64,000 nucleotides of DNA from Sphingopyxis sp. LC363. GTDB lineage: Bacteria; Pseudomonadota; Alphaproteobacteria; Sphingomonadales; Sphingomonadaceae. The notes under the pieces were generated by a model. The model was not told where the DNA came from and did not search any database. It was given only the letters and a program-made list of their open reading frames with translations. The stretch lies in the NCBI RefSeq assembly GCF_000756385.1, contig NZ_JNFC01000012.1:62001-126000 (forward strand), in the 5' to 3' direction. A program made the position numbers and the translations under genes. This document shows, one piece after another, positions 11,131-54,833 of this stretch; the first letter of the stretch is position 1; every line of letters starts with the position of its first letter.

Positions 11131-11138
11131 GCGGCAAG

Positions 11139-36306: not shown

Positions 36307-37079
36307 GCCCGCGCCCGCCCGAAGGTGGTGATCGTCGGCCATTCGCCGCCGGTCTCGACCCTCGCGTCAATGCCGTAAACCGCACGCAGCCGCTCGGCGG
36401 TGAGCACCTCGGCGGGCGTCCCATCGGCGACGATCCGCCCTTCGTCGATCAGCAGCAGCCGGTCGCAATAACGCGCGGCCAGCGTCAGATCGTGCAGCAC
36501 CGCGATCACGAGCCCGCCGCCCGCCGCTTCGGCGCGCAGCAACTCCATCACGTCGATCTGGTGCCCCGGATCGAGGCTCGCGAGCGGCTCGTCGGCGATC
36601 AGCGCGGGCGCCTCGACCGCCAGCGCGCGCGCGAACAGCACCCGCGCGCGCTCGCCGCCCGACAGCTCGGTCGCGATCCGGCCGCGCAGTTCGAGCACGT
36701 CGGCGCGCGCCATCGCGCGCTCGATCGCGGCCGCGTCGGCATCGGAAATCCGCGACATCGGCGCCAGATGCGGCAAGCGCCCCAGCCCGACGAGCCGCTC
36801 GACCGTCAGCGGCCAGTGCAATGTCTGCCCCTGCGGAACATAGGCGATCCGCCGCGCCAGCTCGCCGCGCGGCATCGCCGCCGCATCGACCCCGTCGACG
36901 CGGACCGAACCGCGCGCGGGCACCAGCGCGAGCATCGCGCGCGCCAGCGTCGACTTGCCCGCGCCATTGGGCCCGACGATCCCGGCCAGCGTTCCCGCGC
37001 CGAACGCGGCGCTGACGTCGTGGACCACCGCGCGGCGGCCGAGCGTCACGCCGACATGATCGAGGACCAGGCTCACCAT
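36303..37079 (-). CDS. btuD: ABC transporter ATP-binding protein, cobalamin uptake
   Basis: A 258-residue ATPase: Walker A GPNGAGKST, Q-loop YVPQGQTLHW, signature LSGGERARV, Walker B LIADEPLASLD and H-loop AVLHDLTLA. It is of the FecE/BtuD type that drives type-II importers. The start lies inside btuC (7-base overlap), and it is the last gene of the B12 salvage operon. It energises uptake of vitamin B12 from the periplasm. Confidence 0.92.
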   Translation of the reverse strand: MVSLVLDHVGVTLGRRAVVHDVSAAFGAGTLAGIVGPNGAGKSTLARAMLALVPARGSVRVDGVDAAAMPRGELARRIAYVPQGQTLHWPLTVERLVGLGRLPHLAPMSRISDADAAAIERAMARADVLELRGRIATELSGGERARVLFARALAVEAPALIADEPLASLDPGHQIDVMELLRAEAAGGGLVIAVLHDLTLAARYCDRLLLIDEGRIVADGTPAEVLTAERLRAVYGIDARVETGGEWPTITTFGRARA

Positions 37080-38074
37080 AGCCGCCGCTCCCGCATCAGG
37101 TGGAGGAGGAAGACCGGCACCCCCAGAAAGGCGGTGACGACCCCCAGCTTCAGCTCGTTCGTCGTCGGGATGATCCGCACGCCAAGGTCGGCGAGCGTCA
37201 GCAACGCTGCGCCGCCGATCGCCGAAGGAAGCAGGATCGCCGACGGGCTGCGGTCGGTGAGCGGGCGGATCAGGTGCGGCACGATCAGCCCGACGAAACC
37301 GATCGCCCCCGACACCGCGACCGTGCCGCCGACCCCGATCGCGGTCCCGATCAAGAGGCGGAGCCGCGTGCGCCGCAGATCGGTGCCGAGCGCCTGCGCC
37401 GCATCCTCGCCGAGCGTCAGCGCGTCGAGCGCGCGCCCGTTCCACAGCAGCATTGCGGCGCCGATCGCGATGCACGGCAACGCGATCCACACATGTTCGA
37501 ACGACCTATTCTCGAGGCTGCCGAGCAGCCAGGTCATGATCTCCATCGCCGCGAAGGGATTGGGCGACAGGTTGAGCGCGAGGCTCGTCCCCGCGACCGC
37601 GAGCGTCCCCACCGCGATCCCGGCGAGGATCAGCGTCAGCGGGCTTTCGGCGCGGCCAGCGAGGACGAAAAGCAGCGCGAGCGAGACGAGCGCGCCGCCC
37701 GTCGCGAGCAAGGGCAGCATCACCGGATGCAGCTCGGCGATCCCGAAATAGAGCGCCGCGACCCCGCCGAGCGCCGCGGCGTTCGAGGTTCCGAGCACCG
37801 ACGGTTCGGCGAGCGGATTGCGCAGATAGCCTTGCAGCGCCGCGCCCGCGAGCCCGAGCATCGCGCCCACCGCCAGCGCCAGCAAGGTGCGCGGCAGGCG
37901 CAGGTCGAAGAGGATGATCGACGCGACCCGGTCGCCGTCGCCGCTCGCGGCGGCGATCAGCCGCGCAACCGACAGGTCGACCGCGCCGAACAAGAGCGAG
38001 CCGGCCGCCGCGACCAGCGTCAGCACCGCGAGCGCGCCGATCAGCGACCAGCGGGGGAGGGCAAAGCGGCTCAT
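37073..38074 (-). CDS. btuC: Cobalamin ABC transporter permease (FecCD family)
   Basis: A 333-residue inner-membrane protein with about ten transmembrane segments and the FecCD landmarks RLPRTLLALAVGAMLGLAG, NPLAEPSVLG and the cytoplasmic coupling region near GFVGLIVPHLIRPL. It overlaps btuF by 4 bases. Its assignment to cobalamin rather than iron-siderophore rests on the operon: btuB, cobO and the cobalamin riboswitch. Confidence 0.92.
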   Translation of the reverse strand: MSRFALPRWSLIGALAVLTLVAAAGSLLFGAVDLSVARLIAAASGDGDRVASIILFDLRLPRTLLALAVGAMLGLAGAALQGYLRNPLAEPSVLGTSNAAALGGVAALYFGIAELHPVMLPLLATGGALVSLALLFVLAGRAESPLTLILAGIAVGTLAVAGTSLALNLSPNPFAAMEIMTWLLGSLENRSFEHVWIALPCIAIGAAMLLWNGRALDALTLGEDAAQALGTDLRRTRLRLLIGTAIGVGGTVAVSGAIGFVGLIVPHLIRPLTDRSPSAILLPSAIGGAALLTLADLGVRIIPTTNELKLGVVTAFLGVPVFLLHLMRERRLW

Positions 38075-38928
38075 GAGCGGCCCCCGTCGTGCCGCGCGAT
38101 CTGCGCCGCCATGCTGCGCGCCGCCTGCGTGTAGGCGGGGCTGCCGCACACGGTCCACGCCTGCGCTATGCTGATGCGCGGAATATCCTTGATCGCGGGA
38201 TGGTGCAGCATCTCGCTCCCTTGGTCGGTCACGACATCGGTCGCGCTCTCGACGATCAGGAAATCGGGCTCGGCCGCGACCATCTCCTCGAGGCTCAGTT
38301 GTGAGAGCGGCGGCTTGCCGAGCTTGCCCGCGAGGTTGACCAGCCCGATGCGCGCCATCATTTCGTCGATCAGCGTTCCCGTCCCCGTCATATAGCCGCG
38401 CCGCTGGTAATAGGCCGCGACGCGGCCCTTGCCCGGCTTGGGAAGCCCCGCCAGCTCGCGCTCCATCCGCGCGATCAGCGCGGTCCCGCGCTCGGGGTGG
38501 CCGACTGCCGCGGCGGTCTTGCGGATCGACGTGTAAATTTCGCCAAGCGTGTTGGCGGTCGCGAGGTCGAGCAGCGGATAATGTTGCGGTGGCAGCGCGC
38601 GGAGCGCCGCGCTGCGGCTCGCGGGCATGCCGACGATCAAATCGGGTTCGATCGCCAAAATCTGCTCGGCCGAATTGCTGAGGAGCGGCAGTCCACGCGC
38701 TGCCCCCGCCTCGCCCGACATTTCCGCGTCGGTGGCGTTCTTCGTCAGCCCGGCGATCTGCTTCCGGTCGGCGAGGGCGAGCACGAGTTGGTCGGCGCAC
38801 AGGTTGATCGAAACGATGCGCTGCGGCACCGTCGGCGCCTTGACCGGCGGGGCGGAGGAGGCCGCCCACAGCAGCCCCGCGCCGCCCGCGAGCAGCGCGG
38901 CCGCCGCCAAAAGGCCGCGCCGCCGCAT
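38071..38928 (-). CDS. btuF: Periplasmic cobalamin-binding protein
   Basis: A 285-residue protein of the BtuF/FepB class with a signal peptide at the N-terminus, then the typical opening RIVSINLCADQLVLALADR and LAIEPDLIVG, and a Trp-containing ligand segment near WTVCGSPAY. It delivers B12 to BtuCD. The ATG at 38928 overlaps the cobO stop (TGATG). A TTG one codon upstream is possible. Confidence 0.9.
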   Translation of the reverse strand: MRRRGLLAAAALLAGGAGLLWAASSAPPVKAPTVPQRIVSINLCADQLVLALADRKQIAGLTKNATDAEMSGEAGAARGLPLLSNSAEQILAIEPDLIVGMPASRSAALRALPPQHYPLLDLATANTLGEIYTSIRKTAAAVGHPERGTALIARMERELAGLPKPGKGRVAAYYQRRGYMTGTGTLIDEMMARIGLVNLAGKLGKPPLSQLSLEEMVAAEPDFLIVESATDVVTDQGSEMLHHPAIKDIPRISIAQAWTVCGSPAYTQAARSMAAQIARHDGGRS

Positions 38929-39536
38929 CAAAACTCGATTCCCTTTTGCGCCTTCACATTCTGCTCGCGGAACGGATGCTTCACCTGCGCCATTTCGGTG
39001 ACAAGATCAGCGGCGTCGATCAACGCCTCGGGAGCGTTGCGGCCCGTGATGACCACATGCGTCATATGCGGTTTCGTACCCAGCGCCTCCACCACCTCAT
39101 CGACCGGCAGATAGTCGTAGCGCAGCACGATATTGAGCTCGTCGGCGATCACCATCGCATAGTCGGGATCGGCGATCATCCGTTTGACCTCGTCCCACGC
39201 TTCGCGCGCGACCGCGATGTCGCGCGTCCGGTCCTGCGTATCCCAGGTGAAGCCTTCGCCCATCGGCTTGAATTCGATCAGGTCGGGGAAGCGGTCGAAC
39301 ACGGCTTTCTCGCCGGTCGTCATCGCGCCCTTGATGAACTGGATCACGCCGACCTTCATCCCGTGTCCGATCGCGCGCACCGCCATGCCGAGCGCGGCCG
39401 AAGTCTTGCCCTTGCCGGGACCGGTGTGGACGATGACCAACCCCTTTTCGACCGTCTTCGCCGCGACCTTCTTCGCCTGCGCCGCCTGGATCTTCTTCAT
39501 CTTCGCCTTATGCTCGGCGTCGCTCCGCGCCTTCAT
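38928..39536 (-). CDS. cobO: Cob(I)yrinic acid a,c-diamide adenosyltransferase, CobO type
   Basis: A 202-residue cytoplasmic enzyme with the variant P-loop HTGPGKGKTSAALG, the RYDYLPVDEV segment, and ITGRNAPEALIDAADLVTEM given as ITGRNAPEAL and LVTEM. It adds the adenosyl group to the reduced corrinoid after import, yielding coenzyme B12. The Lys-rich N-terminus (about 30 residues) is typical of CobO/BtuR. It is coupled to both neighbours by TGATG overlaps. Confidence 0.94.
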   Translation of the reverse strand: MKARSDAEHKAKMKKIQAAQAKKVAAKTVEKGLVIVHTGPGKGKTSAALGMAVRAIGHGMKVGVIQFIKGAMTTGEKAVFDRFPDLIEFKPMGEGFTWDTQDRTRDIAVAREAWDEVKRMIADPDYAMVIADELNIVLRYDYLPVDEVVEALGTKPHMTHVVITGRNAPEALIDAADLVTEMAQVKHPFREQNVKAQKGIEF

Positions 39537-41395
39537 CAGAAGCGCGCCCGCACGCCGCCATAGACCGCGCGGCCATAGGTGCCGTAATTGAACGCCGTCG
39601 CATAATCGGCGTCGAACAGATTATCGACGCGGCCGGTAATCTCGAAATGGCCGCTCACGGGGAAGGATGCGCGGATCCCTGCGAGCGCATAGCCGTCGAG
39701 CGGTACGTTATTGGCGAAATCGTCGAAACTGTCGCCGACCATCGTCAGCGTCGCGCCCGTCGACAGCCCGAACGACCAGTCATAATCGGCCGACAGGCTG
39801 ACCGCATGTTCGGCGCGGCGGGGCAGGCGCTTGCCGTCGAACGCGGGGCGCCCCGACCGGTCGCGCGCGTCGATATAGCTGTACGACGCGGTGACGTTCA
39901 GCGCGTCGACGGGCTTCAGCGCCAGCGTCGCCTCGATCCCCTTGGCGCGCGTGCGGTCGATATTGCCATAGATAAAGGTCGCATTGTCGTAATTGATCTG
40001 GTCGTCGGTGTTGCGCAGAAACGCGGTGAGCGAGATCAGCGCACGGCCTTCCGCGAGACTCTGGTCGACGCCGATATCATAGCTTTTCGACCGTTCGGGG
40101 CGCAGCGCGGCGTTGCCGCTGAACGCGTCGTAGAGCTGGTACAGCGACGGCGCCTTGAACCCCTCGCCATAGCTCAGCCGGAAGTTGGTCGCGCCCGCGT
40201 TCGGCGAATAATTGGCGTTGGCGCCGAACGTCGTCGCGCCGCCGAACTGGCTGTGGTCGTCGTGACGGACGCCGCCCGACAGCGACAGGCCGGTGACCGG
40301 CTGGACGATCCCCAGCGCATAGACGCTGTCGATATCGGCCTTCTGGCTGTCGGTCGATCCAAAGCCGAAGAAATCATAGTCGGGGCGTTCATGCTCGTAA
40401 CCGAAGATCAGCTTGGCCTGCTGTACCGGCGTCACGACACCCTGATATTCGAACCTCAAATTACTGCCCGAATAGCCGTAATCGGGCGCCGTCCCGCGCA
40501 CGAAATAATAATCGCGCTCGCCCCGCATCCACGTCACCGCCGCGCGGCTGGTGAAATTGCCGTCGAACAGGCCAAGGTTCAGCCCCGCATAGCCGACATA
40601 TTGGTCGAGCTTGGCGACGTCGGCGCTGTCGGCGGGCGCGCCGAAGAAGCTGTCGTAATCGAGGTCGGCGTTGATATAATAGCCGCGCAGGTCGAGGCTC
40701 AGCGCGTCGCTGAACGCGACCTTCAGCCGCGCGTTGCCCGCGAAATTCTTGTAACCGTCCTTTTCGGTGCCGACCGCCGCCGAAGAAATGCCGTCGGTGC
40801 GAAAATAAGCGCCGCCGATCCCGCCCGAGATGCGCCCGGCGGTGCCCGACACATCGGCCTTGGCATTCAAAGTATCGCTATAGCCATATTCGGCCGAGGC
40901 ATCGGCGGCGAAGCCTTCGGCCGGGGTTGCGGTCATCAGGCTGACGACGCCGCCGATCGCCTGGCTGCCGTGGACGACCGAGTTCGACCCGCGCAGCACC
41001 TCGATCCGGTCGATATTGCCGGTCAGCAGATGGCCGAAATCATATCCGTCGCCGATGCCGCTCGGGTCGTTGACCTTCACCCCGTCGATCAGCACGAGCG
41101 TCTGCGTTGTTTCGGCGCCGCGCAGCGATATGCTCGCGACCGATCCGGTGCTGCCCGACCGGTTGAAGCGCACCCCGGGCGTGGTCGCGAGCAGGTCGAC
41201 GACATCGACCGACTGGCGCCGCGCGATCGTGTCGGCGTCGATGATCGTGATCGCCTGACCGACTTCGTCGCGCGGCTGCTCGACGCCCGACGCGGTGACG
41301 ACGATATCGTCTCCGCGCTCGCTATCGACGGTTTCGGCAAGCGCCGGTGTTGCCGTTGCCAGTGTCAAAAGAGAAATGGTCGCAAATTTCAACAT
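39536..41395 (-). CDS. btuB: TonB-dependent vitamin B12 receptor
   Basis: A 619-residue outer-membrane protein: signal peptide (TATPALAE), TonB box/pre-plug DDIVVTASGVEQP, plug (IDGVKVNDPSG, IEVLRGSNSVVHGSQAIGG given as IEVLRGSNSV and GSQAIGG) and a BtuB-sized barrel ending GRAVYGGVRARF. The cobalamin riboswitch upstream and the salvage genes downstream make the ligand assignment strong. The start at 41395 is preceded by AGGGA 8 bases away. Confidence 0.94.
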   Translation of the reverse strand: MLKFATISLLTLATATPALAETVDSERGDDIVVTASGVEQPRDEVGQAITIIDADTIARRQSVDVVDLLATTPGVRFNRSGSTGSVASISLRGAETTQTLVLIDGVKVNDPSGIGDGYDFGHLLTGNIDRIEVLRGSNSVVHGSQAIGGVVSLMTATPAEGFAADASAEYGYSDTLNAKADVSGTAGRISGGIGGAYFRTDGISSAAVGTEKDGYKNFAGNARLKVAFSDALSLDLRGYYINADLDYDSFFGAPADSADVAKLDQYVGYAGLNLGLFDGNFTSRAAVTWMRGERDYYFVRGTAPDYGYSGSNLRFEYQGVVTPVQQAKLIFGYEHERPDYDFFGFGSTDSQKADIDSVYALGIVQPVTGLSLSGGVRHDDHSQFGGATTFGANANYSPNAGATNFRLSYGEGFKAPSLYQLYDAFSGNAALRPERSKSYDIGVDQSLAEGRALISLTAFLRNTDDQINYDNATFIYGNIDRTRAKGIEATLALKPVDALNVTASYSYIDARDRSGRPAFDGKRLPRRAEHAVSLSADYDWSFGLSTGATLTMVGDSFDDFANNVPLDGYALAGIRASFPVSGHFEITGRVDNLFDADYATAFNYGTYGRAVYGGVRARF

Positions 41396-41502
41396 CGGAA
41401 GTCCCTGCACGCCGGCAACGAAGGCGGAGCCTGCCGACTGCGTGGGACGCGATCGACCGATGCCGGCGTCGCAAGTGGCGTAACGCCTGCGGCACCGCAC
41501 CG

Positions 41503-41520
41503 AGGCGGCTCCAGCCGCCT
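41503..41520 (-). promoter_or_regulatory. Hairpin in the btuB leader, possible expression platform
   Basis: AGGCGGCT-CC-AGCCGCCT is a perfect 8-bp stem located between the cobalamin aptamer and btuB. It has no T-run, so it may act in anti-termination pairing or in control of translation rather than as a simple terminator. Confidence 0.4.
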
Positions 41521-41585
41521 GGTCGTCGCTCGACGGAAACCTCCGTGCCGTGGCCTTTCCCTGGGCCATGGCATTGAGCGACCCA

Positions 41586-41999: not shown

Positions 42000-43160
42000 C
42001 TAAGCGACCCGCTCGACCACCATCGCCGCGCCGACCCCCATCGCGCCGGTCAGCACGACCAGTCCATAACGCCCGCCGCACGCATCGAGCGCGTCGAGCA
42101 AGGTCGAGGTCAGAATCGCGCCGCTCGCGCCCATCGGATGGCCTTTGGCGAGATGGCCGCCGCTGACATTGACGCGCGCCGGATCGGCATCGCGGTCGCG
42201 CATGAATTTGGCGATCGTGACCGCGAACGCTTCCATGAACTCGATCCGGTCCATCTCGCCGAGCGTCAGCCCGGCGCGCGTCAGCACCTTGTCCATCGCC
42301 GCGAACCCCGCGGTCAGCGAAGCAGCAGGGTCGCCGCCGCTTTCGGCAAAGGCGACCACGCGCGCGCGCGGCGCGATGCCGAGCCCGTCGCCGCCGACCA
42401 GCGCCAGCCCCGCGCCATCGCAGATCGGCGGTGCATGCGCGATACTGTGCAGCGGTTCAAAGGTCGCGCCTTCGAGTGCGCCCGCATATTGCGCCTGCAA
42501 CTCGCCAAAGGCCGCCGGTGCGGCGGCGAGCGATTCCGCGCTCGTTTGCGGCCGGATACACTCCTCGCCGTCGAGCGCGCCGGTCGCGACGCGCGAGGCT
42601 TGCAGGGCGGGATCGGTTTCCGCAGCAGCAGCTTTCAGTTGCGAGGCGAGCGCAACCGCGTCGAGTTCGGCGCGCGCGATGCCTTCGCTGTTCGCCAGCC
42701 GGTCGGCCGCCAGCACCGGCGGCACGAAGCGCGCGCGCGGCGGCAATTCGTCGTTGGTGTAATATCCGGCGCGATCGCCGAGGAAGGGCGCGCTGCTCAT
42801 CGACTCGACTCCGCCCGCGAGCGCCACCGCGATCTCGCCGCTCGCGACCTTCGCGACCGCCTGCCCGATCGCCGATAATCCCGACGCGCAATAATTGTTG
42901 ATGCTGTGCGCGGCGGTCTGGTCGGGCAACCCCGCGTGCAGCTTCGACACCAGCGCGATATGCCCACCCTGCTCGCCGCTCTGCGTAACGCAACCAAGCA
43001 GCAGCACATCTGGCGTCGTAGCGACATCGCCGCATCGCGCCGCAAGCGCCGCCGCCTGCTGGCGCACCAACTCCTGCGGGCTGAGCTTGGCGAGCCCGCC
43101 ATCGGGCCGCGCCTTGCCGCGCGGCGTCCGCACCGCGTCGTAAAGATAGACCTCGCTCAA
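42000..43160 (-). CDS. Thiolase-family acetyl-CoA acetyltransferase with altered second Cys
   Basis: A 386-residue thiolase. The acyl-accepting Cys is in INNYCASGLSAIGQA and the His in GGHLAKGHPMGASG. At the C-terminus, where degradative thiolases have LCxGGGxGAA with the proton-shuttling Cys, the sequence is LTGAMGVGAA, so that Cys is replaced by Thr. The start is a TTG at 43160, one base after the upstream stop, which gives a normal family length and implies translational coupling. Last gene of the five-gene operon with CoA ligase and oxygenase. Likely acts on a beta-keto or similar acyl-CoA, with activity uncertain because of the substitution. Confidence 0.85.
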   Translation of the reverse strand: MSEVYLYDAVRTPRGKARPDGGLAKLSPQELVRQQAAALAARCGDVATTPDVLLLGCVTQSGEQGGHIALVSKLHAGLPDQTAAHSINNYCASGLSAIGQAVAKVASGEIAVALAGGVESMSSAPFLGDRAGYYTNDELPPRARFVPPVLAADRLANSEGIARAELDAVALASQLKAAAAETDPALQASRVATGALDGEECIRPQTSAESLAAAPAAFGELQAQYAGALEGATFEPLHSIAHAPPICDGAGLALVGGDGLGIAPRARVVAFAESGGDPAASLTAGFAAMDKVLTRAGLTLGEMDRIEFMEAFAVTIAKFMRDRDADPARVNVSGGHLAKGHPMGASGAILTSTLLDALDACGGRYGLVVLTGAMGVGAAMVVERVA

Positions 43161-43161
43161 A

Positions 43162-44391
43162 TCAGGTGCCGACGACGAAGCTGACCGCGGTCGTCGCGCT
43201 GCCACCGACGTTGAAGGTCGCGAAGTTGCGCGCGCCCTCGACCTGATAATCGCCAGCGTTTCCGGTGACCTGCCGCCATCCGTCGAGCAGCATCCGCACC
43301 CCGGTGGCACCTACCGGATGCCCGAGCCCGATCAGCCCGCCCGATGGATTGACCGGCAGCTTCCCGCCCAGCGCAATCGTCCCGTCCTCGACCGCGCGCC
43401 AGCTTTCGCCCGGTTTGGTGATCCCGAAATGATCGATCGCCATATATTCGGTGATCGAAAAACAGTCATGCACCTCGACCCCGTCGCACGCATAGATGTC
43501 GGGCATCTCTGCGCGCCGCAGCGCGTCCATCATCGCCTTGCGAACGCTTGGAAAAACAAAGCCTTGGCCTCTGCTTTCCGCGACTTTGGTCGAATAGAGC
43601 AGCGGCGCGGTCGCATGCCCCCATCCCTTGATCCGCGGAATCAAGTCGATCGAAATCCCCCGACGCTGCGCGTAACGTTCGGCAACTTCCGCCGAGGCGA
43701 GAAAGATCGCAGCCGCCCCGTCGGTAACCTGCCCGCAATCGGACTTGCGCAAACTCCCCTCGATCAACGGATTGACCTCGTCATTCTCACCGAGATGATC
43801 GTCGGTAATCGCCCAGCCGCGCGTCTGCGAATATGGGTTCTTCTTGGCATTGGCGAAATTGTTCGCCGAAATCCCGCGCAGATGCGCACGGTCGAGCCCG
43901 AAGCGCTCCTCATATTCCTCGGCGACGCGCGCGAACATATAGGGCCACAGATAACGCGCCTCCTGCGCCTCGCGCCCCGCCCACGCGGCGGCGCCAAGAT
44001 ATTCGGCGGCGCGCTGGCCGGGGACGTTGCGCATCAATTCGATCCCAAGCACGAGCGCGAGGCCGTAGCGCTCGGCCTCGATCTCGGCGGCGGCGGCGAG
44101 GATCGCGATGCTGCCCGACGCGCAGGCGGCTTCGTGCCGCGAAGCGGGGATGCCCGCGAGGTCGGGGTGGACATGGCCGAAGAAGCCGCCGAGCTGGCCT
44201 TGCCCCGCGAACAGCTCGCCGACGAAATTGCCGACATGCGCGGTCTCGACCTCTTTGGGTTCGATCCCCGTCGCCACGAAAGCGGCTTCGGCGACATCGC
44301 GGAACAGCTCGAACAGCCCGCCGCCCTCGCGTTCGAGGTTGCGCGAAAAGTCGGTCTGCGCGCCGCCGAGGATGAAGACGTCCTTTGCCAT
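43162..44391 (-). CDS. SCP2/SCP-x-type thiolase
   Basis: A 409-residue thiolase-fold protein of the SCP-x branch: Cys in HEAACASGSIAI, VHDCFSITEYMAIDHF and the His in GLIGLGHPVGATG. Proteins of this branch cleave branched or sterol-like side-chain acyl-CoAs, or work as partner-dependent thiolases and aldolases. It ends one base away from the second thiolase start and begins one base after the CoA-ligase stop, so both thiolases are made together and could form a hetero-complex. Confidence 0.88.
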   Translation of the reverse strand: MAKDVFILGGAQTDFSRNLEREGGGLFELFRDVAEAAFVATGIEPKEVETAHVGNFVGELFAGQGQLGGFFGHVHPDLAGIPASRHEAACASGSIAILAAAAEIEAERYGLALVLGIELMRNVPGQRAAEYLGAAAWAGREAQEARYLWPYMFARVAEEYEERFGLDRAHLRGISANNFANAKKNPYSQTRGWAITDDHLGENDEVNPLIEGSLRKSDCGQVTDGAAAIFLASAEVAERYAQRRGISIDLIPRIKGWGHATAPLLYSTKVAESRGQGFVFPSVRKAMMDALRRAEMPDIYACDGVEVHDCFSITEYMAIDHFGITKPGESWRAVEDGTIALGGKLPVNPSGGLIGLGHPVGATGVRMLLDGWRQVTGNAGDYQVEGARNFATFNVGGSATTAVSFVVGT

Positions 44392-44392
44392 G

Positions 44393-46084
44393 TCAGGCTT
44401 CCTTTTCGAGAGTGGCGAGCGCCATTTCGCGCACTTCGCTGCGCATCACCTTGTTGGTGACGTTGCGCGGCAGCGCGTCGAAGCGGAACAGGCGCTCGGG
44501 CAGTTTGAATACCGCGAGGTCGTGGCCGCGCAGATAATCGGCGACCTCGCCGATCCCCACATCGTCGCTCCCACGCGGAACATAGGCGAGTCCGATGCGC
44601 TCGCCCATCGTCGGGTCGGGGAGCGAGAAGGTGCAGGCCTCGGCCAGCAGCGGATGCCCGCCGAGCATCTGGTCGATCTCCTCGGGCGAGATATTGACCC
44701 CGCCGCGGATGATCAGATCCTTGCAGCGCCCGACGAAGCGATAGAAATCTCCGTCCTCGGCGATCTCGAACAGGTCGCCGGTTCGGAACCAGCCGTCGTC
44801 GGTGAAGGCTTCGGCGGTGCGCTCGGGGGCATTGTGATAGCCCTCGAACAAGGTCGGGCCGCGGATCTGGAGTTCGCCTGAGACGCCGTCCGCCTCGATC
44901 GGTTCGCCGCCGCCGGGCGGGACGAGCCGGCTTTCGATATTGGGGGCGCGGCCTTCGCAATAGGGGCGCTGATAGGTACCGCGACGCGGGAACAGGCTCG
45001 CGCGCTTGTCGGGGTCGGGCATGTCGGCCTCGCCGGTGATGAAGCTCATCCCCTCGTTCGACCCGAACACATTGACGATGATGATGCCGAGCTTGTCCTG
45101 AAAACCGCGCACCATCGCGGGCGCGAGGGGGGCGGAGCCCGAGGCGATGACGCGCAGGCTGGAGAGGTCGACCGACGCGAGCAAAGCCTCATTCTGCAGC
45201 AGCATGTTGAGCACCGCGGGCGGCGCGATCGTCAGGCTCGGCCGCTCGGTCGCGATCTGCTTGAGGTAGACGCCGGGGTCGAAGGGGTGGTGCAGCACCA
45301 TCGTCCCCGCGCTGGTGAGCCAGCACATTGTAATGCCGCCGATGCTCGCCATGTTGATAAGCGGGAAGGGGTTGAGCAGCACGTCGCCCGGGCCGACCTT
45401 CATCGCCTCATAACCGGCGCCCGCAACCGCGATCCAATGGTTGTGGCTGCGCGGCACGCCCTTGGGCACGCCGGTGGTGCCCGATGTCCAGCAGATGGTG
45501 AAGATATCGTCGGCATCGACCGGGTTGGCGGCGATATGCGCGGCTAGCGCGGCTTCGTCACCCACGGCGGTCGAGAGGTCGAGCGCTTCGTCTGGTGGAT
45601 TGGGGCCAAAGGTCATCAGCCTGATGCCATCGAGCAGCGGCGCCGCAACACCGACATGATCGCATCCCTTGACCGTCGTCGCACAGAGGAAGGCTTTCGG
45701 TTCGACGACGCCGATCATACCCTTCAGCTCATGGCTGCGATATTGCACCGCCGCCGGGCTGACGATCGCGCCTATCTTCGCCGCAGCGAAATAGAGCGCG
45801 ACGAACTCGCTGATATTGGGAAGCTGGACGAGCAGCACATCGTCCTTGCGGATGCCCGCCTTGACCAGCGCCCCCGCTAGCCGGTCGACCTCCGCCGCCA
45901 GCTCGGCATAGCTCAACCGCTGCGGCACGCCGAACGCGAAGTCGCTGCGGTTCGGCGCATCGACCAGCGCCAGCCGCCCGGGATGCGCCGCCGCATTGGC
46001 CGCGAACAGGCTGGCGAATGTTTCGTCACCCCACCAGCCGCTCTCCCGATATTGCCGCCTTTTATCCTCTCCCGCGACGATCAT
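44393..46084 (-). CDS. AMP-forming acyl-CoA synthetase (ANL superfamily)
   Basis: A 563-residue ligase with the adenylation motif WTSGTTGVPKG, VFGSNEGMSF, WFRTGDLFEI and the C-terminal GRCKDLIIRGGVNISPEEI hinge, plus the catalytic Lys in RNVTNKVMRS. It activates a carboxylic acid as an acyl-CoA through an acyl-adenylate. Substrate unknown; neighbours suggest an acid derived from oxidative C=C cleavage. ATG 46084 lies one base after the oxygenase stop. Confidence 0.9.
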   Translation of the reverse strand: MIVAGEDKRRQYRESGWWGDETFASLFAANAAAHPGRLALVDAPNRSDFAFGVPQRLSYAELAAEVDRLAGALVKAGIRKDDVLLVQLPNISEFVALYFAAAKIGAIVSPAAVQYRSHELKGMIGVVEPKAFLCATTVKGCDHVGVAAPLLDGIRLMTFGPNPPDEALDLSTAVGDEAALAAHIAANPVDADDIFTICWTSGTTGVPKGVPRSHNHWIAVAGAGYEAMKVGPGDVLLNPFPLINMASIGGITMCWLTSAGTMVLHHPFDPGVYLKQIATERPSLTIAPPAVLNMLLQNEALLASVDLSSLRVIASGSAPLAPAMVRGFQDKLGIIIVNVFGSNEGMSFITGEADMPDPDKRASLFPRRGTYQRPYCEGRAPNIESRLVPPGGGEPIEADGVSGELQIRGPTLFEGYHNAPERTAEAFTDDGWFRTGDLFEIAEDGDFYRFVGRCKDLIIRGGVNISPEEIDQMLGGHPLLAEACTFSLPDPTMGERIGLAYVPRGSDDVGIGEVADYLRGHDLAVFKLPERLFRFDALPRNVTNKVMRSEVREMALATLEKEA

Positions 46085-46085
46085 C

Positions 46086-47582
46086 TCAGGCGGCCAGCAC
46101 GCTGTTTTCGCCCATGCCGATATCGTCGCCGCTCGCCCACACGGTGTGGGTGCCCGAACAGATGCGTTCGGGCAGGATGATCCGGCATACCGGCCCCGCC
46201 GCGACATTTTTCGCGTCGATCAGCACGCATTCGGATTTGTCGGTTTCGAGGTCGGCGATGAAGGAGACGAGATAGCCGTCGTCCTCGTCCTTCGCATCGA
46301 TCCGCGGCGCGAAGGGCGCCTCGCTGCCGAAGCGGCCGGGGCCGAATTCATAGTCCTCGCTCGTCCCAGCATCGAGGTCGTGCTTCACCAGCCCGCGGAA
46401 CAGGAACCAGCCCGGCTCGGGGATCGCGCTATAGGCGTAGCGATAGGGCTTGCCCGCATAGCGGTGGTTGAACATGCCGAATTCGAGGTCGCGGTCGTCG
46501 AGCCTCTGTTCGGTCGTTTTCCCGGTCTTGAGGTTGAAGCGCCAGCGGTGGAGCCTCGGCTTGAGCAGCCCCTGATCAAGATAGGCCATCATCCGCTCGA
46601 GCCCCTCCGGCGCGTTCGGATAGGATTTCGGCATCGGCTCTTCCTGATAATAGCCGTCGAGGATGATCTCGTCGCCTTCCTCCCATGCGTTGAGCCAGTG
46701 GAGCGTGTAGGTCGGTTCGGCTTCGAACCAGCGGATATCTGCGGGCTGCCCGTGGCGCGGGATGATGGCGAAGCGCGTCTTCTCGTCGGGATGGAACTGG
46801 ACGACGTGGAGGTTCCGTTCGAGCAGTTCCGCGTTCCAATAAAGCGGCATGTCGTTGAGGATCGTATAATTTTCGGTGAAGGCCATGTCGTGCGGCAGGC
46901 GCGGTCCGGCGAGCGGGACGGGGATATAATGCTTGAGCTTATTGTCCGCGCCGACGACGCCATAGTGCATATAGGGCGCGTGCTTCGAATAGTTGAAGAA
47001 CATGAGTTCGCCCGTCGCGAGGTCGACCTTGCAGTGCGCCGAAATGCCGTCGAGCGGCACCCAGCTTTCGGTACCGAACTGTTCGAGCGTGAAGGGATCG
47101 AGCCGGTACGCTTCGCCGCACTGGTAGAAGGTCGAGATTATCTTGCCCGCGTGGATCGCGACGTCGGTCGAGCTTGAATCCTTGAGCCATTCCTGCGCCC
47201 CCCAGCCGTGGCGCGTCGACTTGTGCGGCGGCTCCATCAGCCCCGCCCACAGCGAGCGGCCGGCTTCCTTTTCGGCCTCGAACCCCTTGGTGCGCACGAA
47301 ACGGCTGCGATAGCTCGCGCGGCCATCCTTGAACGAGATAGCGTGTATGAAGCCATCGCCGTCGAAGGGGTGATAGCGGCCGATCGGCTCGTGGATCTGG
47401 TTTTCGCCGGTGCGGACGTAAACCCCGTCGATGTCGGTCGGGATATTGCCGATCACCTCGGCATCGCCGTCGGCGAAGATCGCGTTCCACTCATTATAGG
47501 TCGGGCGCCACGCGCCCTTCATATAGGGGTGGTCGTTCGGCTGGATGGTGGTCTGGATCGTGTCGATGAGTTCGGCGGTCAT
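46086..47582 (-). CDS. Carotenoid-cleavage-type oxygenase (RPE65/lignostilbene dioxygenase family)
   Basis: A 498-residue seven-blade propeller-type protein. The four iron-binding His are each recognisable: GISAHCKVD, LPHDMAFTEN, TLHWLNAWEEGDE and CSGTHTVWA. YHPFDGDGFIHA also fits the family. Such enzymes split a C=C bond with O2 to give two carbonyls; substrates range from carotenoids and apocarotenals to stilbenes and isoeugenol. No signal peptide. It overlaps the NMO-family gene by 4 bases. Its presence in an operon with a CoA ligase and thiolases indicates a catabolic role. Confidence 0.92.
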   Translation of the reverse strand: MTAELIDTIQTTIQPNDHPYMKGAWRPTYNEWNAIFADGDAEVIGNIPTDIDGVYVRTGENQIHEPIGRYHPFDGDGFIHAISFKDGRASYRSRFVRTKGFEAEKEAGRSLWAGLMEPPHKSTRHGWGAQEWLKDSSSTDVAIHAGKIISTFYQCGEAYRLDPFTLEQFGTESWVPLDGISAHCKVDLATGELMFFNYSKHAPYMHYGVVGADNKLKHYIPVPLAGPRLPHDMAFTENYTILNDMPLYWNAELLERNLHVVQFHPDEKTRFAIIPRHGQPADIRWFEAEPTYTLHWLNAWEEGDEIILDGYYQEEPMPKSYPNAPEGLERMMAYLDQGLLKPRLHRWRFNLKTGKTTEQRLDDRDLEFGMFNHRYAGKPYRYAYSAIPEPGWFLFRGLVKHDLDAGTSEDYEFGPGRFGSEAPFAPRIDAKDEDDGYLVSFIADLETDKSECVLIDAKNVAAGPVCRIILPERICSGTHTVWASGDDIGMGENSVLAA

Positions 47583-48547
47583 GCGGGGACTCCTTCGGCG
47601 GCAGCAAAGCGCGGCCTCGCGGCGGCGGCATCATATTCCTTGACGAGGCGGTCGACGATAGTCGCGACGGGCTCGACCGCGCGGACAGCGCCGACGCCCT
47701 GGCCGGCGGACCACACATTCTTCCACGCCTTGGCATCGTCCTGCGCGTCGGAGAAATTTGGTCGCTTGTCTTCGGGCATGTTGACGGGATCGTAGCCCGC
47801 AGCGATCAGGCTCGACTTCAGCCAGTTGGCAGTGACACCGGTGATGCCCTTCGAAGGCACGATGTCCTCGGCGCCAGCGGCGACGACCATGTCCTTATAG
47901 CCCGGCACTGCCATGCTTTCGGCGCAAGCGATCAACGAGGTGCCGAGATAGGCGAAGTCGGCACCGAGGATTTCGGCGGCGCGGATCGCATGGCCGGTCG
48001 AGATCGCCCCGCCGAGCACGAGCGGCCCGTCCCAGAATTGCCGCACCTCCTCGACAAAGGCGAAGCCCGCGGTCGCGCCGGTGTGTCCGCCCGCGCCCGC
48101 GGCGACGAGCACGAGCCCGTCGACTCCGGCCGCCGCCGCCTTGCGCGCGAAACCCACCGAATTGACGTCGGCGAAGACGAGCCCGCCATAGCCGTGAATT
48201 TCTTCGACGACGCGCGCCGGGCTGCCGAGCGCGGTGATCACCAGCGGGACCTTGTGGCGCACGACGCAGGCGAGGTCTTCGGGCAGGCGGTTGTTCGACG
48301 GATGGACGACCAGATTGACCGCCCAGGCTGCGGCGTCGGGATCGTTCGACAGCGCCGAATCGATCCGGCTGACCCAGTCTTCGAGGTCGGCCGATGTGCG
48401 TGCATTGGGGGCCGGGAAGCTGCCGATCACCCCCGAACGCGACGCCGCGATCACCATCTCGGGACCCGAGACGAGGAACATCGGCGCCGCGATCGCGGGC
48501 AGGCGCAAATTCCGCATCAGCGCAGTTGGCAGGCCGTTTTTCGGCAC
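47579..48547 (-). CDS. Nitronate monooxygenase (NPD) family flavoprotein
   Basis: A 322-residue FMN TIM-barrel protein: PAIAAPMFLVSGPEMV at the N-terminus, VFADVNS, the GAGGHTGAT phosphate/His loop, LGGAISTGHAI and GADFAYLGTSLIA. The family includes nitronate monooxygenases and enoyl-ACP/CoA reductases (FabK-like). With no nitro compound genes nearby, a reductase or other oxidation step on the operon's substrate is equally possible. GTG start after GGAGAGG. First gene of the operon, divergent from the TBDR at 48664; the 116-base gap is the promoter region. Confidence 0.88.
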   Translation of the reverse strand: MPKNGLPTALMRNLRLPAIAAPMFLVSGPEMVIAASRSGVIGSFPAPNARTSADLEDWVSRIDSALSNDPDAAAWAVNLVVHPSNNRLPEDLACVVRHKVPLVITALGSPARVVEEIHGYGGLVFADVNSVGFARKAAAAGVDGLVLVAAGAGGHTGATAGFAFVEEVRQFWDGPLVLGGAISTGHAIRAAEILGADFAYLGTSLIACAESMAVPGYKDMVVAAGAEDIVPSKGITGVTANWLKSSLIAAGYDPVNMPEDKRPNFSDAQDDAKAWKNVWSAGQGVGAVRAVEPVATIVDRLVKEYDAAAARPRFAAAEGVPA

Positions 48548-48663
48548 CTTCGATCCTCTCCAAATTATCTGACTTGCATAACGATACTTAAAGACGATAT
48601 GAGTCGCAAGGCCAGAAAAACATCGCGGGGCAAACCTGAGGATGGTGGGAGGGAGAGAGTTTC

Positions 48664-50952
48664 ATGAAAAAGCATTTGGTCGCGTTGCTCGCCGCATCGG
48701 CGCTTGCCAGCCCCGGTATCGCCCTTGCGCAGGACGCGGCGCCGGCTGACGATCAGGGCGGGCTTGAGGAAATCATCGTCACCGCGCAGAAACGCGCCGA
48801 GGGCCTCTCCGACGTGCCGATCTCGATCTCGGCGGTCAGCGGCAAGCAGGTCGAAAGTTATGGCCAGACCAACCTCGAACAAATCTCCTCGTCGGTCCCG
48901 AACCTCAAGATCACCCAGACCGCGATCGCCAACCGCATCGCGATCCGCGGCATCGCATCGGGCGACAACAAGGGTTTCGAACAGTCGGTCGCGATGTTCG
49001 TCGACGGCGTCTATTACGGCCGCGACCAGCTCTCGCGCCTGCCGCTCGTCGACATGGAGCGCGTCGAGGTCCTGCGCGGCCCGCAGCCGACTTTGTTCGG
49101 GAAAAATGCGATCGCGGGCGCGGTCAACATCACGACGCGCAGCCCGACCGACGAGTTCGAAGGCTCGGTCAGCGGCCTCTATGAATTCAACCACAAGGAA
49201 GTGCAGCTCACCGGCGTGCTGTCGGGGCCGCTCAGCGACGGCATCGAAGCGCGCGTCGTCGGCTATCATCGTTCGATGGACGGCTATTTCTACAATCAGG
49301 AACTCGACCGCGACGAGCCGAACGTCGACGAATATTATGTCCGCGGTAAGCTCGAATTCGACAAGGGCGGGCCGTTCGCGGCCGAACTCAAGCTCGAATA
49401 TGCCGACTTCGAAACGAAGGGGCAGCCGCGCGACGTGTTCGGCGCGGTCGGCAATTACAATGCCGTCTTCCAGGGACCCTTCTTCGTCAGCACCGATCCC
49501 GATTATGTCCGCGAGGACAATGGCTATGAAAGCCGCAACAAGGTGTTCGGCGCGACGCTCAACGCCGACCTTGAGCTTGGCGACCACACGCTGACCTCGG
49601 TTTCGTCGCTGCTCGATTACAAGACGCGCGAGATCGTCGACGTCGATTTCTCCGGCATCAGCTTCCTCGACGGCACCAATTTGCGCGAGGATTATCGCCA
49701 GTTCAGCCAGGAACTCCGCCTCGCGTCGCCGGGCGGCGAGGCGTTCAACTATATCGCGGGCGTCTATTACCAGCATGCGAAGCTCGACGTGCAGGACTTC
49801 ACGCTGTTCAACCCGACCTTTCTCGCGCTGGGCGCCCCCTTCAGCGCGCTCGGCGATACCAGCAACGATCGTGATTATGCGCAGAAATCCGACCTGATTT
49901 CGGGCTTTGCCCAAGGCGAGCTGTCGGTCACCGATCGGCTTCGCATCACCGCGGGCGCGCGCTTCAACCATGAGAAGAAGACGGGCAGCCGCAACCTCGC
50001 GATCGTGCAGGGGCCGCTCAGCACCGCGCCCGCGCCGGTCGTTGCGGCGGTGTTCCGCGCTCTCAATATCGAAGCACACAGCATCTCGGGCAAGATCAGC
50101 GAGGACAGCTTCAACCCGATGGTCAACGTCCAGTACGACGCGACCGACGATCTGATGCTCTACGCTTCCTATGCCAAGGGGACGAAGGCGGGCGGCTTCG
50201 ACATCCGGTCGAACTCGCTGCCGACCTCGACCACCGTCGCGCGGCCCGGCGCGTTCGAGTTCGAGGACGAAAGCGCCGACAATTTCGAGGCGGGGGTCAA
50301 ATACAAGGGGCGCAGTGTCGCGTTCAATCTTTCGGTATATCGCACCGATTACAAGGATCTGCAGGTCAACATCTTCGACGGCACGCTCAACTTCAACGTC
50401 CGCAACGCCGCCGAGGCCCGCACGCAGGGGGTCGAGGCCGACTTCCGCGCCGCGCTCGCCCCCGGGCTGACGGTCAGCGGCGCGGTCGCCTATCTCGACT
50501 TCAAGTTCAGCAATTTCACCGACGGCCAATGCTATTATCTGCAGACGCCCGACGCGAACGGCTTCTGCGACTATTCGGGCAAGCGCAACGCGCTCAGCCC
50601 CAAATGGTCGGGCAACCTCAACCTCGATTACACTACGCCGGTGACGAGCGACATGAAGGTCGCGTTCAACCTTAATGCCGACTTCTCCTCCTCCTATATC
50701 GCGGCGGCGAACCTCGACCCGCGCACGCATCAGGACGGTTATGTGAAGCTCGGCGCGCGGCTTGCGCTGGCTGAGGTCGACGACCGCTGGGAGGCCGCAC
50801 TGATCGGCCGCAACCTCACCAACCAACGCATCCTGCAGACCGCGAGTTCGATGCCGCTCGCGACGACGATCACGCGAAACGCCGGCAACGCCTATAACGG
50901 CATCGTCGACCGCCCGCGCACGATCGCGGTGCAGTTGACCGGACGCTTCTGA
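48664..50952 (+). CDS. TonB-dependent receptor of the oxygenase/CoA-ligase locus
   Basis: A 762-residue outer-membrane receptor, shorter than the glycan receptors. Signal peptide (SPGIALAQ), pre-plug EEIIVTAQKRAEGLSDVP, plug (NRIAIRGIASGDNKG, FVDGVYYGRD, VEVLRGPQPTLFGKNAIAGA given as VEVLRGPQ and FGKNAIAGA) and a barrel ending RTIAVQLTGRF. The VTAQKR type is the FhuA/FepA-like group that in sphingomonads often serves hydrophobic or aromatic compounds. Being divergent from the catabolic operon it probably imports that operon's substrate (inference). Confidence 0.93.
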   Translation: MKKHLVALLAASALASPGIALAQDAAPADDQGGLEEIIVTAQKRAEGLSDVPISISAVSGKQVESYGQTNLEQISSSVPNLKITQTAIANRIAIRGIASGDNKGFEQSVAMFVDGVYYGRDQLSRLPLVDMERVEVLRGPQPTLFGKNAIAGAVNITTRSPTDEFEGSVSGLYEFNHKEVQLTGVLSGPLSDGIEARVVGYHRSMDGYFYNQELDRDEPNVDEYYVRGKLEFDKGGPFAAELKLEYADFETKGQPRDVFGAVGNYNAVFQGPFFVSTDPDYVREDNGYESRNKVFGATLNADLELGDHTLTSVSSLLDYKTREIVDVDFSGISFLDGTNLREDYRQFSQELRLASPGGEAFNYIAGVYYQHAKLDVQDFTLFNPTFLALGAPFSALGDTSNDRDYAQKSDLISGFAQGELSVTDRLRITAGARFNHEKKTGSRNLAIVQGPLSTAPAPVVAAVFRALNIEAHSISGKISEDSFNPMVNVQYDATDDLMLYASYAKGTKAGGFDIRSNSLPTSTTVARPGAFEFEDESADNFEAGVKYKGRSVAFNLSVYRTDYKDLQVNIFDGTLNFNVRNAAEARTQGVEADFRAALAPGLTVSGAVAYLDFKFSNFTDGQCYYLQTPDANGFCDYSGKRNALSPKWSGNLNLDYTTPVTSDMKVAFNLNADFSSSYIAAANLDPRTHQDGYVKLGARLALAEVDDRWEAALIGRNLTNQRILQTASSMPLATTITRNAGNAYNGIVDRPRTIAVQLTGRF

Positions 50953-51052: not shown

Positions 51053-51985
51053 TTGAAACACGACCGCACCATCAGGGCCTGCTCGATCTGGCGCGCGCTC
51101 GATGTCGTCGGCGACGTGCCGGTCCTGCTGATCATGGAACAGACGTTCCTCGGCATCCACAGCTTCGACGAATTCGTCGCGCGCACCGGCCTCGCGCGCT
51201 CGGTCGTCAACGGCCGCCTCAAGAAGCTGGTCGAGGAGGATTGCCTCGCCAAAGTGCCCAAGAAGAATGGGCGCGGCTTTCACTATGTCCTCACGCAGAA
51301 GGGCCGCGACCAATTCCCGAACGGCCTGATGATGCTGCGCTGGCAGCATAAGTGGGAGGCGGACAGCCGCGATTTCCAGGTCCGGCTTCACCACGCCACC
51401 TGTGGCCATGCGACCGAACCCGTGCCCGTATGCGCGCATTGCCGCGCCGAGATCGATCCGCGCGACGTCGACTGGCGCGAGGGGCCGGGGCTTGCACAGG
51501 TCGTCCCGCATTACGAGCGCCGCCGCTTCAACGGCGAAGTCGGCGCCCGGCGCCCCGGCGGCCGTCCGCTCGTCGACACGATGATCGAGCTGTTCGGCGA
51601 TCGCTGGGCGACGCTCGTCGTCCGCGCGATGTTCACGCACATCAACCGCTTCGACGATATCCAGCGCGACACGCTGATGGCGACGAACATATTAACCGGC
51701 CGCCTCGAACGGCTCGTGCGGCAGGGTATCTTGAAGACCGTGCCCTATTCGAGCCACGCCGACCGCGTCGAATATCGCCTGACCGACAAGGGGCGCGATC
51801 TCTACCCGGTGCTGCTCGCGCTGTTGCAATGGGGCGACAAATGGTTTTCCGACGAGCGCGGGCCGCCGGTGCTGCTGACGCATCGTCCGTGCGGCCATGA
51901 CTTGCATATGGTCGCGGCGTGCAGCCATTGCGGCGACGAACTCGCGCTATCGAACAGCCGCTTCACGATCGAAGAGGCGGGCTAG
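51053..51985 (+). CDS. Tandem HxlR-type winged-helix regulator with two Cys/His knuckles
   Basis: A 310-residue protein made of two similar halves. Each half has an HxlR-like winged helix (about 8-100 and 172-265; compare LDVVGDVPVLLIMEQTF and IELFGDRWATLVVRAMF, HYVLTQKGRDQFP and EYRLTDKGRDLYP). Each is followed by a motif with identical spacing: C117-x-H119...C127-x-x-C130 and C280-x-H282...C290-x-x-C293, which looks like a small metal site. HxlR proteins usually are single-domain and dimerise; here the dimer may be built into one chain. TTG start after AAGGA. Likely regulates the adjacent TBDR and oxygenase operon. Confidence 0.85.
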   Translation: MKHDRTIRACSIWRALDVVGDVPVLLIMEQTFLGIHSFDEFVARTGLARSVVNGRLKKLVEEDCLAKVPKKNGRGFHYVLTQKGRDQFPNGLMMLRWQHKWEADSRDFQVRLHHATCGHATEPVPVCAHCRAEIDPRDVDWREGPGLAQVVPHYERRRFNGEVGARRPGGRPLVDTMIELFGDRWATLVVRAMFTHINRFDDIQRDTLMATNILTGRLERLVRQGILKTVPYSSHADRVEYRLTDKGRDLYPVLLALLQWGDKWFSDERGPPVLLTHRPCGHDLHMVAACSHCGDELALSNSRFTIEEAG

Positions 51986-53272: not shown

Positions 53273-54832
53273 TCAGGAAATGGCGGGGCCACTCGTATCC
53301 CTATATTCGCGGCGCAGTTCGACCAGCCGCCGCTTCATCGCCGCGATCGGACCCTTCATCGCCGGATCGCCGATCCGATTGTCCATCTCGTGCGGATCTT
53401 TCTTCAGGTCGTAAAACTCCCACGCGTCGAGCCCTTCGCCATAGAAACGCACGAGTTTGTACCGCTCGCCGCGTACGCCATAGTGCGCGCGCACCGCGTG
53501 GAACCCTGGAAATTCGTAGTAATGATAATAAACATCCTTGCGCCAGTCGCGCAGCGTGCGGCCGGCCAGTAGCGGCGTCATCGACCGGCCTTGGATCGTC
53601 GCCGGACCCTTGACCCCGGCATAGTCGAGGAAGGTCGGCGCATAGTCGATATTCTGGATCGGCGCAGCGATGCGGGTGCCCGGGCGAATATGCCCCGGAT
53701 ACTGGATCAGGAACGGCGTGCGCATCGATTCTTCATAGATGAAGCGCTTGTCGAACCAGCCATGCTCGCCCAGGTAAAAGCCCTGGTCGGAGGTGTAGAC
53801 GACGATCGTGTTCCGATCGAGGCCACTTTCTTCCAGATAGTCGAGCACCGCGCCGACGCCTTCGTCGACCGCCGCGATCGTGCCCAGATATTGCTGCATG
53901 TAACGCTGATATTTCCACAGCGCGAGGTCGCGGCCCGACAGCGGCGCGGCGTTGAGCCGGTCGTTGTCGGCCTGCATCGCCGCGTCCCATTCGGCCTGCT
54001 GTGCGTGCGTCATCCGGTCGAAAGCGCCGGGCCAGCGGTTGTAGCGCAGCTGCGCCGACCCCTTCGCGACCGTCATCTTGAGGTCGTGCCCCTCATACAT
54101 ATCGCGATAGATGTTCATTTCCTGTGTGCCTGCGGCGATGCGGCCGCGATAATCGTCGAAATAATTGCCCGGCACGGGAAAGGTCACGCCCTGATATTTC
54201 CGCACATGGCGCAGCGCAGGCATGAAATTGCGGTGCGGCGCCTTGTGGTGGATCATTATCGCAAAGGGCTTCGACTTGTCGCGCCCGGTTTTCAGCCAGT
54301 CGAGGCTGTACTGCGTGATGAGGTCGGTGGCATAGCCCTCGACGACGCTGCGTCCCTTGGGCGTGATGATGTCAGGGTTATAATATTCGCCCTGATCGTC
54401 GAGCACTTTCCAGTCGTCGAAGCCGATGCCTTCGGGCGAATAGTTGATGTGCCATTTGCCGAACATCGCGGTCGCATAGCCCGCCTGGCCCAGCGCGCGC
54501 GGCCAGACCCAGACATTATTGTCGAACCGCTGGCCGTTCTGGGTGAAACCATGCGCGTGACTCTGCCGCCCGGTGAGCAACGTCGCGCGGCTGGGACCGC
54601 ACAGCGAATTGCCAACGAAGCTCTGCGTGAAGATCGCGCCATTTTTCGCGATCCGGTCGATATTGGGCGTCGGCGCCAGCTTCGACAGCGGCGAGCCATA
54701 GGCCGAAATCGCCTGATAGGCATGATCGTCCGACATGATGTAGACGATGTTCGGGCGTGCGGCCGGCTCTGCCCCCGCCGCGGCAACGAAAGCGAGCGGG
54801 AGCGCGAGCGCGAGAGGAAGGCGAAAGCGCAT
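53273..54832 (-). CDS. Exported sulfatase, S1 family, Cys type (S1_11-like, GlcNAc-6-sulfatase)
   Basis: A 519-residue alkaline-phosphatase-fold sulfatase with a signal peptide (LAFVAAAGA). The formylglycine site is C78 in SLCGPSRATLLTGR, so activation needs a formylglycine-generating enzyme encoded elsewhere. Metal and substrate motifs include YIMSDDHAYQA, MFGKWHIN, HHKAPHRNFMP and YTSDQGFYLGEHGWFDK given as YTSDQGFYLGEHGW. HKAPHRNFMP and the general layout resemble the S1_11 subfamily, whose known members remove 6-sulfate from GlcNAc. One base separates it from the GH3 stop. Confidence 0.85.
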   Translation of the reverse strand: MRFRLPLALALPLAFVAAAGAEPAARPNIVYIMSDDHAYQAISAYGSPLSKLAPTPNIDRIAKNGAIFTQSFVGNSLCGPSRATLLTGRQSHAHGFTQNGQRFDNNVWVWPRALGQAGYATAMFGKWHINYSPEGIGFDDWKVLDDQGEYYNPDIITPKGRSVVEGYATDLITQYSLDWLKTGRDKSKPFAIMIHHKAPHRNFMPALRHVRKYQGVTFPVPGNYFDDYRGRIAAGTQEMNIYRDMYEGHDLKMTVAKGSAQLRYNRWPGAFDRMTHAQQAEWDAAMQADNDRLNAAPLSGRDLALWKYQRYMQQYLGTIAAVDEGVGAVLDYLEESGLDRNTIVVYTSDQGFYLGEHGWFDKRFIYEESMRTPFLIQYPGHIRPGTRIAAPIQNIDYAPTFLDYAGVKGPATIQGRSMTPLLAGRTLRDWRKDVYYHYYEFPGFHAVRAHYGVRGERYKLVRFYGEGLDAWEFYDLKKDPHEMDNRIGDPAMKGPIAAMKRRLVELRREYRDTSGPAIS

Positions 54833-54833
54833 C

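Follow-up and report, generated by a model that had tools for sequence, protein, structure and literature searches.

A receptor-linked operon around a divergent carotenoid/lignostilbene-type oxygenase in Sphingopyxis sp. LC363: a candidate module for the uptake and degradation of an unsaturated compound

The closest described relatives of the enzyme treated here, a carotenoid/lignostilbene-type oxygenase (CCO), include enzymes of two kinds. The lignostilbene dioxygenases LsdA, LSD4 and NOV1 resemble CCO in their fold, their four-His iron site and their occurrence in sphingomonads, but structural alignments give only 24-28% identity, and two LSD4 residues, Tyr-101 and Lys-134, are not present in CCO. 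For its part, the plant carotenoid 9,10-dioxygenase CCD1 is the top PDB sequence match to CCO (229 bits) and has the top Foldseek E-value, with 29-33% identity. To our knowledge, lignostilbene dioxygenases are not neighbours of thiolases, and we know of no CoA pathway context for CCD1. CCO is encoded in a stretch of 64,000 nucleotides from Sphingopyxis sp. LC363 (NZ_JNFC01000012.1, positions 62,001 to 126,000; hereafter the window, to which the coordinates refer), located on contig C12 of the 4.2-Mb assembly. There it forms part of a five-gene operon facing the genes for a TonB-dependent receptor and a regulator, and we propose, with a probability of a little under 60%, that the whole constitutes a module, under common regulation, through which a small conjugated unsaturated compound is taken up and degraded.

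The five genes lie on the minus strand and encode, in this order, a nitronate monooxygenase/FabK-superfamily flavoprotein (NMO; 47579-48547, start GTG, PF03060), CCO (46086-47582), an acyl-CoA/aryl-CoA ligase of the AMP-binding type (ACS; 44393-46084, with an internal ATG start and profile matches), an SCP2-type thiolase (SCP2T; 43162-44391) and a thiolase-family protein (Thl; 42000-43160, start TTG, with Pfam Thiolase_N/C matches and an alignment to 3svk). The genes for NMO and CCO share 4 bases, and 1-base gaps separate the genes at the remaining three junctions. On the plus strand follow the receptor (48664-50952; PF00593 and PF07715) and a tandem HxlR regulator (HxlR2; 51053-51985), which contains two HxlR stretches and whose match to the winged-helix domain PF01638 (93 bits versus a cut-off of 20.8) places it among the HxlR regulators. 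Thus, both the tight packing of the operon and the divergent receptor with its regulator, as given in a preliminary description of the locus, agree with the coordinates and Pfam domains, although the HxlR2 gene falls beyond the end stated there (50952). The spacer between NMO and the receptor holds a putative operator-like element, AAGTATCGTTATGCAAGTCAG (48569-48589, minus strand); scans for promoters and terminators gave no signal above chance.

According to the proposed scheme, the receptor would import the compound and CCO would use O2 to split a C=C bond, yielding carbonyls, as the entry step. The aldehyde would then be oxidised to the acid, in the LC363 genome by an unlinked enzyme and in two plasmid-borne forms of the module by an aldehyde dehydrogenase encoded alongside, after which ACS would form the CoA ester, the NMO-type flavoprotein might adjust the double bond adjacent to the thioester and SCP2T would remove a short acyl-CoA, Thl being either its partner or an enzyme with another activity. 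HxlR2 would control both the operon and the receptor, presumably by binding the 21-bp element.

Gene order was compared in the best 80 of 193 CCO loci from genome contigs, overlapping hits being allowed in the count. The order NMO-CCO-ACS-SCP2T-Thl was found in 40 of the 80, in records labelled Sphingopyxis, Parasphingopyxis, Erythrobacter, Sphingorhabdus and Novosphingobium among others, and the divergent receptor and HxlR2 accompanied it in 34. An order present in 40 of 80 loci is not a product of chance, and its conservation outside the source strain, which the preliminary description had named as a check, was thereby confirmed. These loci are related, so that the counts are not independent, and two of them (L110 and L128) are a single region with an identical CCO. 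At least one of NMO, ACS, SCP2T and Thl was also matched in 22 of the 28 loci whose CCO is at most 75% identical, by tblastn at E 1e-20, a threshold at which some matches may be generic family members. Even on the deepest CCO branch (∼38-44% identical, midpoint root), three or more core genes lay nearby in six of seven rows. In 93 of 96 loci (L065, L075 and L076 were left out, the gene caller having missed CCO), the genes most often found within eight genes of CCO were those for SCP2T (43 loci), HxlR2 (37), a DUF1295 membrane protein (35), Thl (31), ACS (29) and NMO (27), followed by six clusters of SnoaL-like or SDR proteins (11 to 21 loci each) and two receptor clusters (15 and 12). Searches of the LC363 genome yielded no DapB-like match (E 1e-15), no SnoaL_4 match (E 1e-10) and one DUF1295 homolog (50%) amid genes unlike the pathway; therefore, the genes of these extended clusters have no close counterpart there.

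At the level of whole genomes, CCO was detected in 65 of 298 family genomes (E 1e-60). At E 1e-140, 5 of the 385 genomes of the class and 12 of the 398 of the phylum contained it, both of the latter lists including the LC363 genome itself and family members. CCO and its partner genes occur in many sphingomonads, in Caulobacterales, in Burkholderiales and in gammaproteobacterial metagenome-assembled genomes (MAGs). SCP2T was found in 41 of the 298 family genomes (E 1e-90), and 40 of these also contain CCO, the exception (G267) being 76% complete (Fisher p 3e-31, kinship not corrected for). In 36 of the 40 genomes having both, the two genes lie within 20 kb of each other, against an expectation of about 0.5.

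The operator-like element is conserved across Sphingopyxis, and several others carry, in a reading by eye, two tandem copies ∼18 bp apart. A matrix built from 17 sites of the window clade gave 53 hits in 88 loci, compared with 1.2 in Markov controls. When the window-clade loci (L114 to L117) were excluded, 48 hits were obtained in 22 of the 84 remaining loci, whereas 30 column-permuted matrices gave a mean of 2.8 and a maximum of 8. All 48 fell within 300 bp of the start of a pathway gene, a zone that comprises 14% of the bases, and they lay near CCO, receptor, SnoaL, ACS, DapB-like, SCP2T, SDR, DUF1295 and other starts. In two loci (L097 and L102), a Ramlibacter CCO gene preceded by such a site, with no HxlR2 in the stretch, adjoins three genes that we read as RraA-like.

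Versions of the module were also found on plasmids. Three plasmid islands (L174, L175 and L177) retain HxlR2, ACS, NMO, CCO and Thl, and in the compact versions found in Sphingopyxis granuli RW412 and Cupriavidus NH9 these five are joined by an aldehyde dehydrogenase and an SDR. In Cupriavidus basilensis, which also has all five, an aldehyde dehydrogenase lies at a greater distance, and the plasmid form, like that of NH9, includes a porin and TctC. Insertion sequence elements lie near the RW412 region and integrases near that of NH9. In C. necator C39, CCO adjoins SCP2T, and a Polaromonas plasmid carries CCO without other module genes.

The proteins downstream of CCO were compared with their families. 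SCP2T gave a full-length match to NF004936 (660 bits versus a cut-off of 375) and contains HDCF, as befits an SCP2-type thiolase; Cys90 was conserved in 54 of 55 aligned rows (one gap), and His308, Cys310 and His358 in all 55. The best NCBIfam and PDB match of NMO was FabK, and its assignment to the nitronate monooxygenases is a superfamily match only. Its relatives lay among acyl-CoA genes in the three NMO-bearing plasmid records examined, and its role might be IpdC-like.

Several observations weigh against the proposed module. Although the nucleophilic Cys91 and the catalytic His341 of Thl were kept in 45 of 45 rows, the Asn of the NEAFA motif is replaced by Met in 40 and retained in 4, and Thr takes the place of the second Cys in 37, Cys being retained in 4, although both residues have catalytic roles in thiolases; thus, the catalytic motifs described earlier as intact are so in CCO and SCP2T, whereas in Thl they are so only in part. 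Neither an aldehyde dehydrogenase nor a hydratase is encoded in the window operon, as had been pointed out from the start, the former being supplied in the RW412 and NH9 plasmids. As for regulation, AAGTATCGTTATGCAAGTCAG was the sole site in its own genome at up to three mismatches, with no second close one, and a shorter pattern (up to two mismatches) gave three further sites, each with two mismatches, against two control matches. No site was found in 11 of the 29 held-out loci with HxlR2, four held-out loci had a site and lacked HxlR2 within the stretch, and at best one weak match was obtained in the plasmid forms. Furthermore, SCP2T was absent at E 1e-90 from 25 of the 65 CCO-bearing family genomes, and 32 of the 97 rows of the CCO tree had none of the six core genes within 10 genes. 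Finally, the loci L057 (Sphingopyxis KK2) and L059 (MAG-119) are collinear on both sides with L032 (Sphingopyxis HIX) minus six genes: an intact CCO is left (2993-4489 and 10001-11497, respectively), and HxlR2, the receptor, NMO, ACS, SCP2T and Thl are missing. In such lineages CCO may have an unrelated role, and its cleavage need not feed a pathway.

The unusual active site of Thl, together with the resemblance of NMO to FabK, would fit a biosynthetic operon, the ligase and the FabK-like flavoprotein acting with a thiolase that condenses to assemble a product for CCO to trim. We consider this very improbable, given the divergent TonB receptor, the porin and TctC of the C. basilensis and NH9 plasmids and the aldehyde dehydrogenase of those of RW412 and NH9; in addition, no acyl carrier protein, ketosynthase or export gene was detected among the five operon genes in the open reading frame list or with Pfam.

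The CCO genes that stand alone bear on another reading, namely, that CCO acts on a carotenoid of the cell itself, or produces retinal or a signal, with the CoA genes serving for salvage and only loosely coupled to it. A nested clade of 15 CCOs from family genomes adjoins genes read as hppA, tesB and uvrC, and the ratio of nonsynonymous to synonymous substitutions (dN/dS) between the solo CCOs of L057 and L059, 0.07, indicates purifying selection. The value for these solo CCOs against the window CCO (0.13) is higher than that between operon copies (0.04), and the constraint on them may therefore have changed. Such solo enzymes and the top sequence match to CCD1 are what an endogenous substrate would predict; nevertheless, this reading appears improbable in view of the co-transcription layout with a receptor, the operator-like site common to several families and the presence of CCO on plasmids of Cupriavidus and Polaromonas, hosts that may or may not make carotenoids.

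The flanks of L057 and L059 differ from those of the window, and to judge from the wide conservation of the module, the six genes were probably lost there rather than gained elsewhere. SCP2T was found in none of the six solo-CCO genomes searched and was found in the control, although all but one of these six are MAGs, including two of only 1.9 Mb, in which absence carries less weight. Since several lineages have CCO and not the remaining genes, it is separable from the operon. Thus, the dependence is one-way: SCP2T accompanies CCO, and not the reverse. This would be expected if the product of CCO is what the other enzymes use and if cleavage is beneficial by itself, and CCO is probably an entry step useful on its own. 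It is therefore the first enzyme of the proposed module to assay.

CCO belongs to the RPE65 superfamily by its propeller fold and its four His iron ligands, which were kept in 113 of 113 aligned rows. Its closest named relatives are from Sphingopyxis, with identities up to 97%. The top NCBIfam match was NF052295, 8'-apo-carotenoid 13,14-cleaving dioxygenase (220.3 bits versus a cut-off of 675); NF053778, lignostilbene dioxygenase, gave 214.9 bits versus 800, and with none of the three NCBIfam models that it matches did CCO reach the cut-off. Comparison of structures did not serve to assign a class, as Foldseek placed CCD1 first and VIA-align LsdA; only the LSD4 residues were of help. In LSD4, Tyr-101 and Lys-134 are reported to bind the 4-hydroxyl of the substrate (PMC8191317). 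In CCO, the corresponding columns hold Leu115, at which 98 of the 113 rows have Leu and 13 have Ile, and Tyr153 (Tyr in 109 of 113), which argues against simple 4-hydroxystilbenes or isoeugenol as substrates, as far as residues can predict them. A second CCO of the LC363 genome (L209, contig C55, 3740-5086) is 31% identical and has no module genes on its 7.9-kb contig, and two clusters elsewhere, L087 and L172, contain three and two CCO paralogs, respectively, with ACS, NMO, SCP2T and a TctC-type protein.

The same residues bear on the possibility of a new lignin/phenylpropanoid module, in which a divergent CCO would cleave stilbenes or propenyl-arenes to products leading to benzoyl-CoA-type acids or protocatechuate. 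In one genome (G001), pobA and genes for the 4,5-cleavage of protocatechuate lie next to the cluster, as checked with hidden Markov models, and in two others (G095 and G207) likewise by similarity, while PcaD-like hydrolases in the plasmid versions also suit an aromatic substrate. However, this neighbourhood is confined to one genus, the phenol-binding pair is replaced, the lignostilbene model falls far short of its cut-off and stilbene cleavage would not need two thiolases, so that we regard a module of this kind as rather unlikely. Regarding the substrate itself, our tentative first guess is a methyl-branched, apocarotenoid-like isoprenoid, because the phenol-binding residues are missing, CCD1 is the best match by sequence and the context includes SCP2T, DUF1295 and SnoaL-like proteins. 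SCP2-type thiolases act on methyl-branched and steroid side chains, and the DUF1295 and SnoaL-like partners, which lie outside the window operon, would suit enone chemistry. An aromatic alkene seems less likely, and so, to the same degree, does some other compound. The route advanced in the preliminary description, from import through C=C cleavage and CoA activation to chain shortening, remains reasonable in the light of the gene order with the receptor, the shared element and the plasmid aldehyde dehydrogenase, and is weakened by the non-canonical Thl, the separable CCO and the missing Tyr/Lys pair.

Other clusters of the window were noted. A cobalamin-type uptake cluster (36303-41569) adjoins the operon and encodes a CobO-type adenosyltransferase, a periplasmic binding protein, an ABC ATPase and a receptor closest to the TonB-B12 model, below its cut-off. 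At 26196-30645, a TonB receptor of 1078 amino acids is followed by three tandem tryptophan-halogenase-like flavoproteins, two by Pfam and the third by similarity. A chondroitinase-B-like lyase, a GH20 protein, a sulfatase and a protein called GH3-like on the basis of its sequence (929-3112, 32724-35279 and 53273-57152) suggest glycan use.

No description of the module was found in the literature searched, most subscription journals being outside its reach, nor did the matches listed, in the parts seen, include a bacterial cluster of CCO and NMO. If the substrate is aromatic, CCO would represent a new clade with a different binding pocket; if it is an apocarotenoid, the module would supply the missing genes by which a plant hormone or fragments of pigments are broken down. 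More speculatively, and doubtful as a whole, this could be the first set of genes with which bacteria catabolise compounds of the apocarotenoid type (abscisic acid [ABA], ionones, retinoids or algal carotenoid fragments), with a CCD1-like cut giving a methyl ketone, a CoA branch with the SCP2-type thiolase consuming the fragment and a single HxlR regulon carried by plasmids between sphingomonads and Burkholderiales. The C2=C3 bond of ABA corresponds to C9=C10 of carotenoids. In Rhodococcus P1Y, the side chain of ABA is lost stepwise via dehydrovomifoliol, through enzymes not identified in the portions of the reports consulted (PMC9599779, PMC6938937). The likeness of ABA catabolism, in this strain and in Novosphingobium P6W, to the module would be one of chemistry. 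Each protein of the module is a member of a known superfamily; the top PDB matches of SCP2T, for instance, are the trypanosomatid SCP2-thiolase-like structures 4bi9 and 3zbg. Unlike SCP2-type thiolases in general (NF004936), however, the SCP2T of Sphingomonadaceae is tied to CCO.

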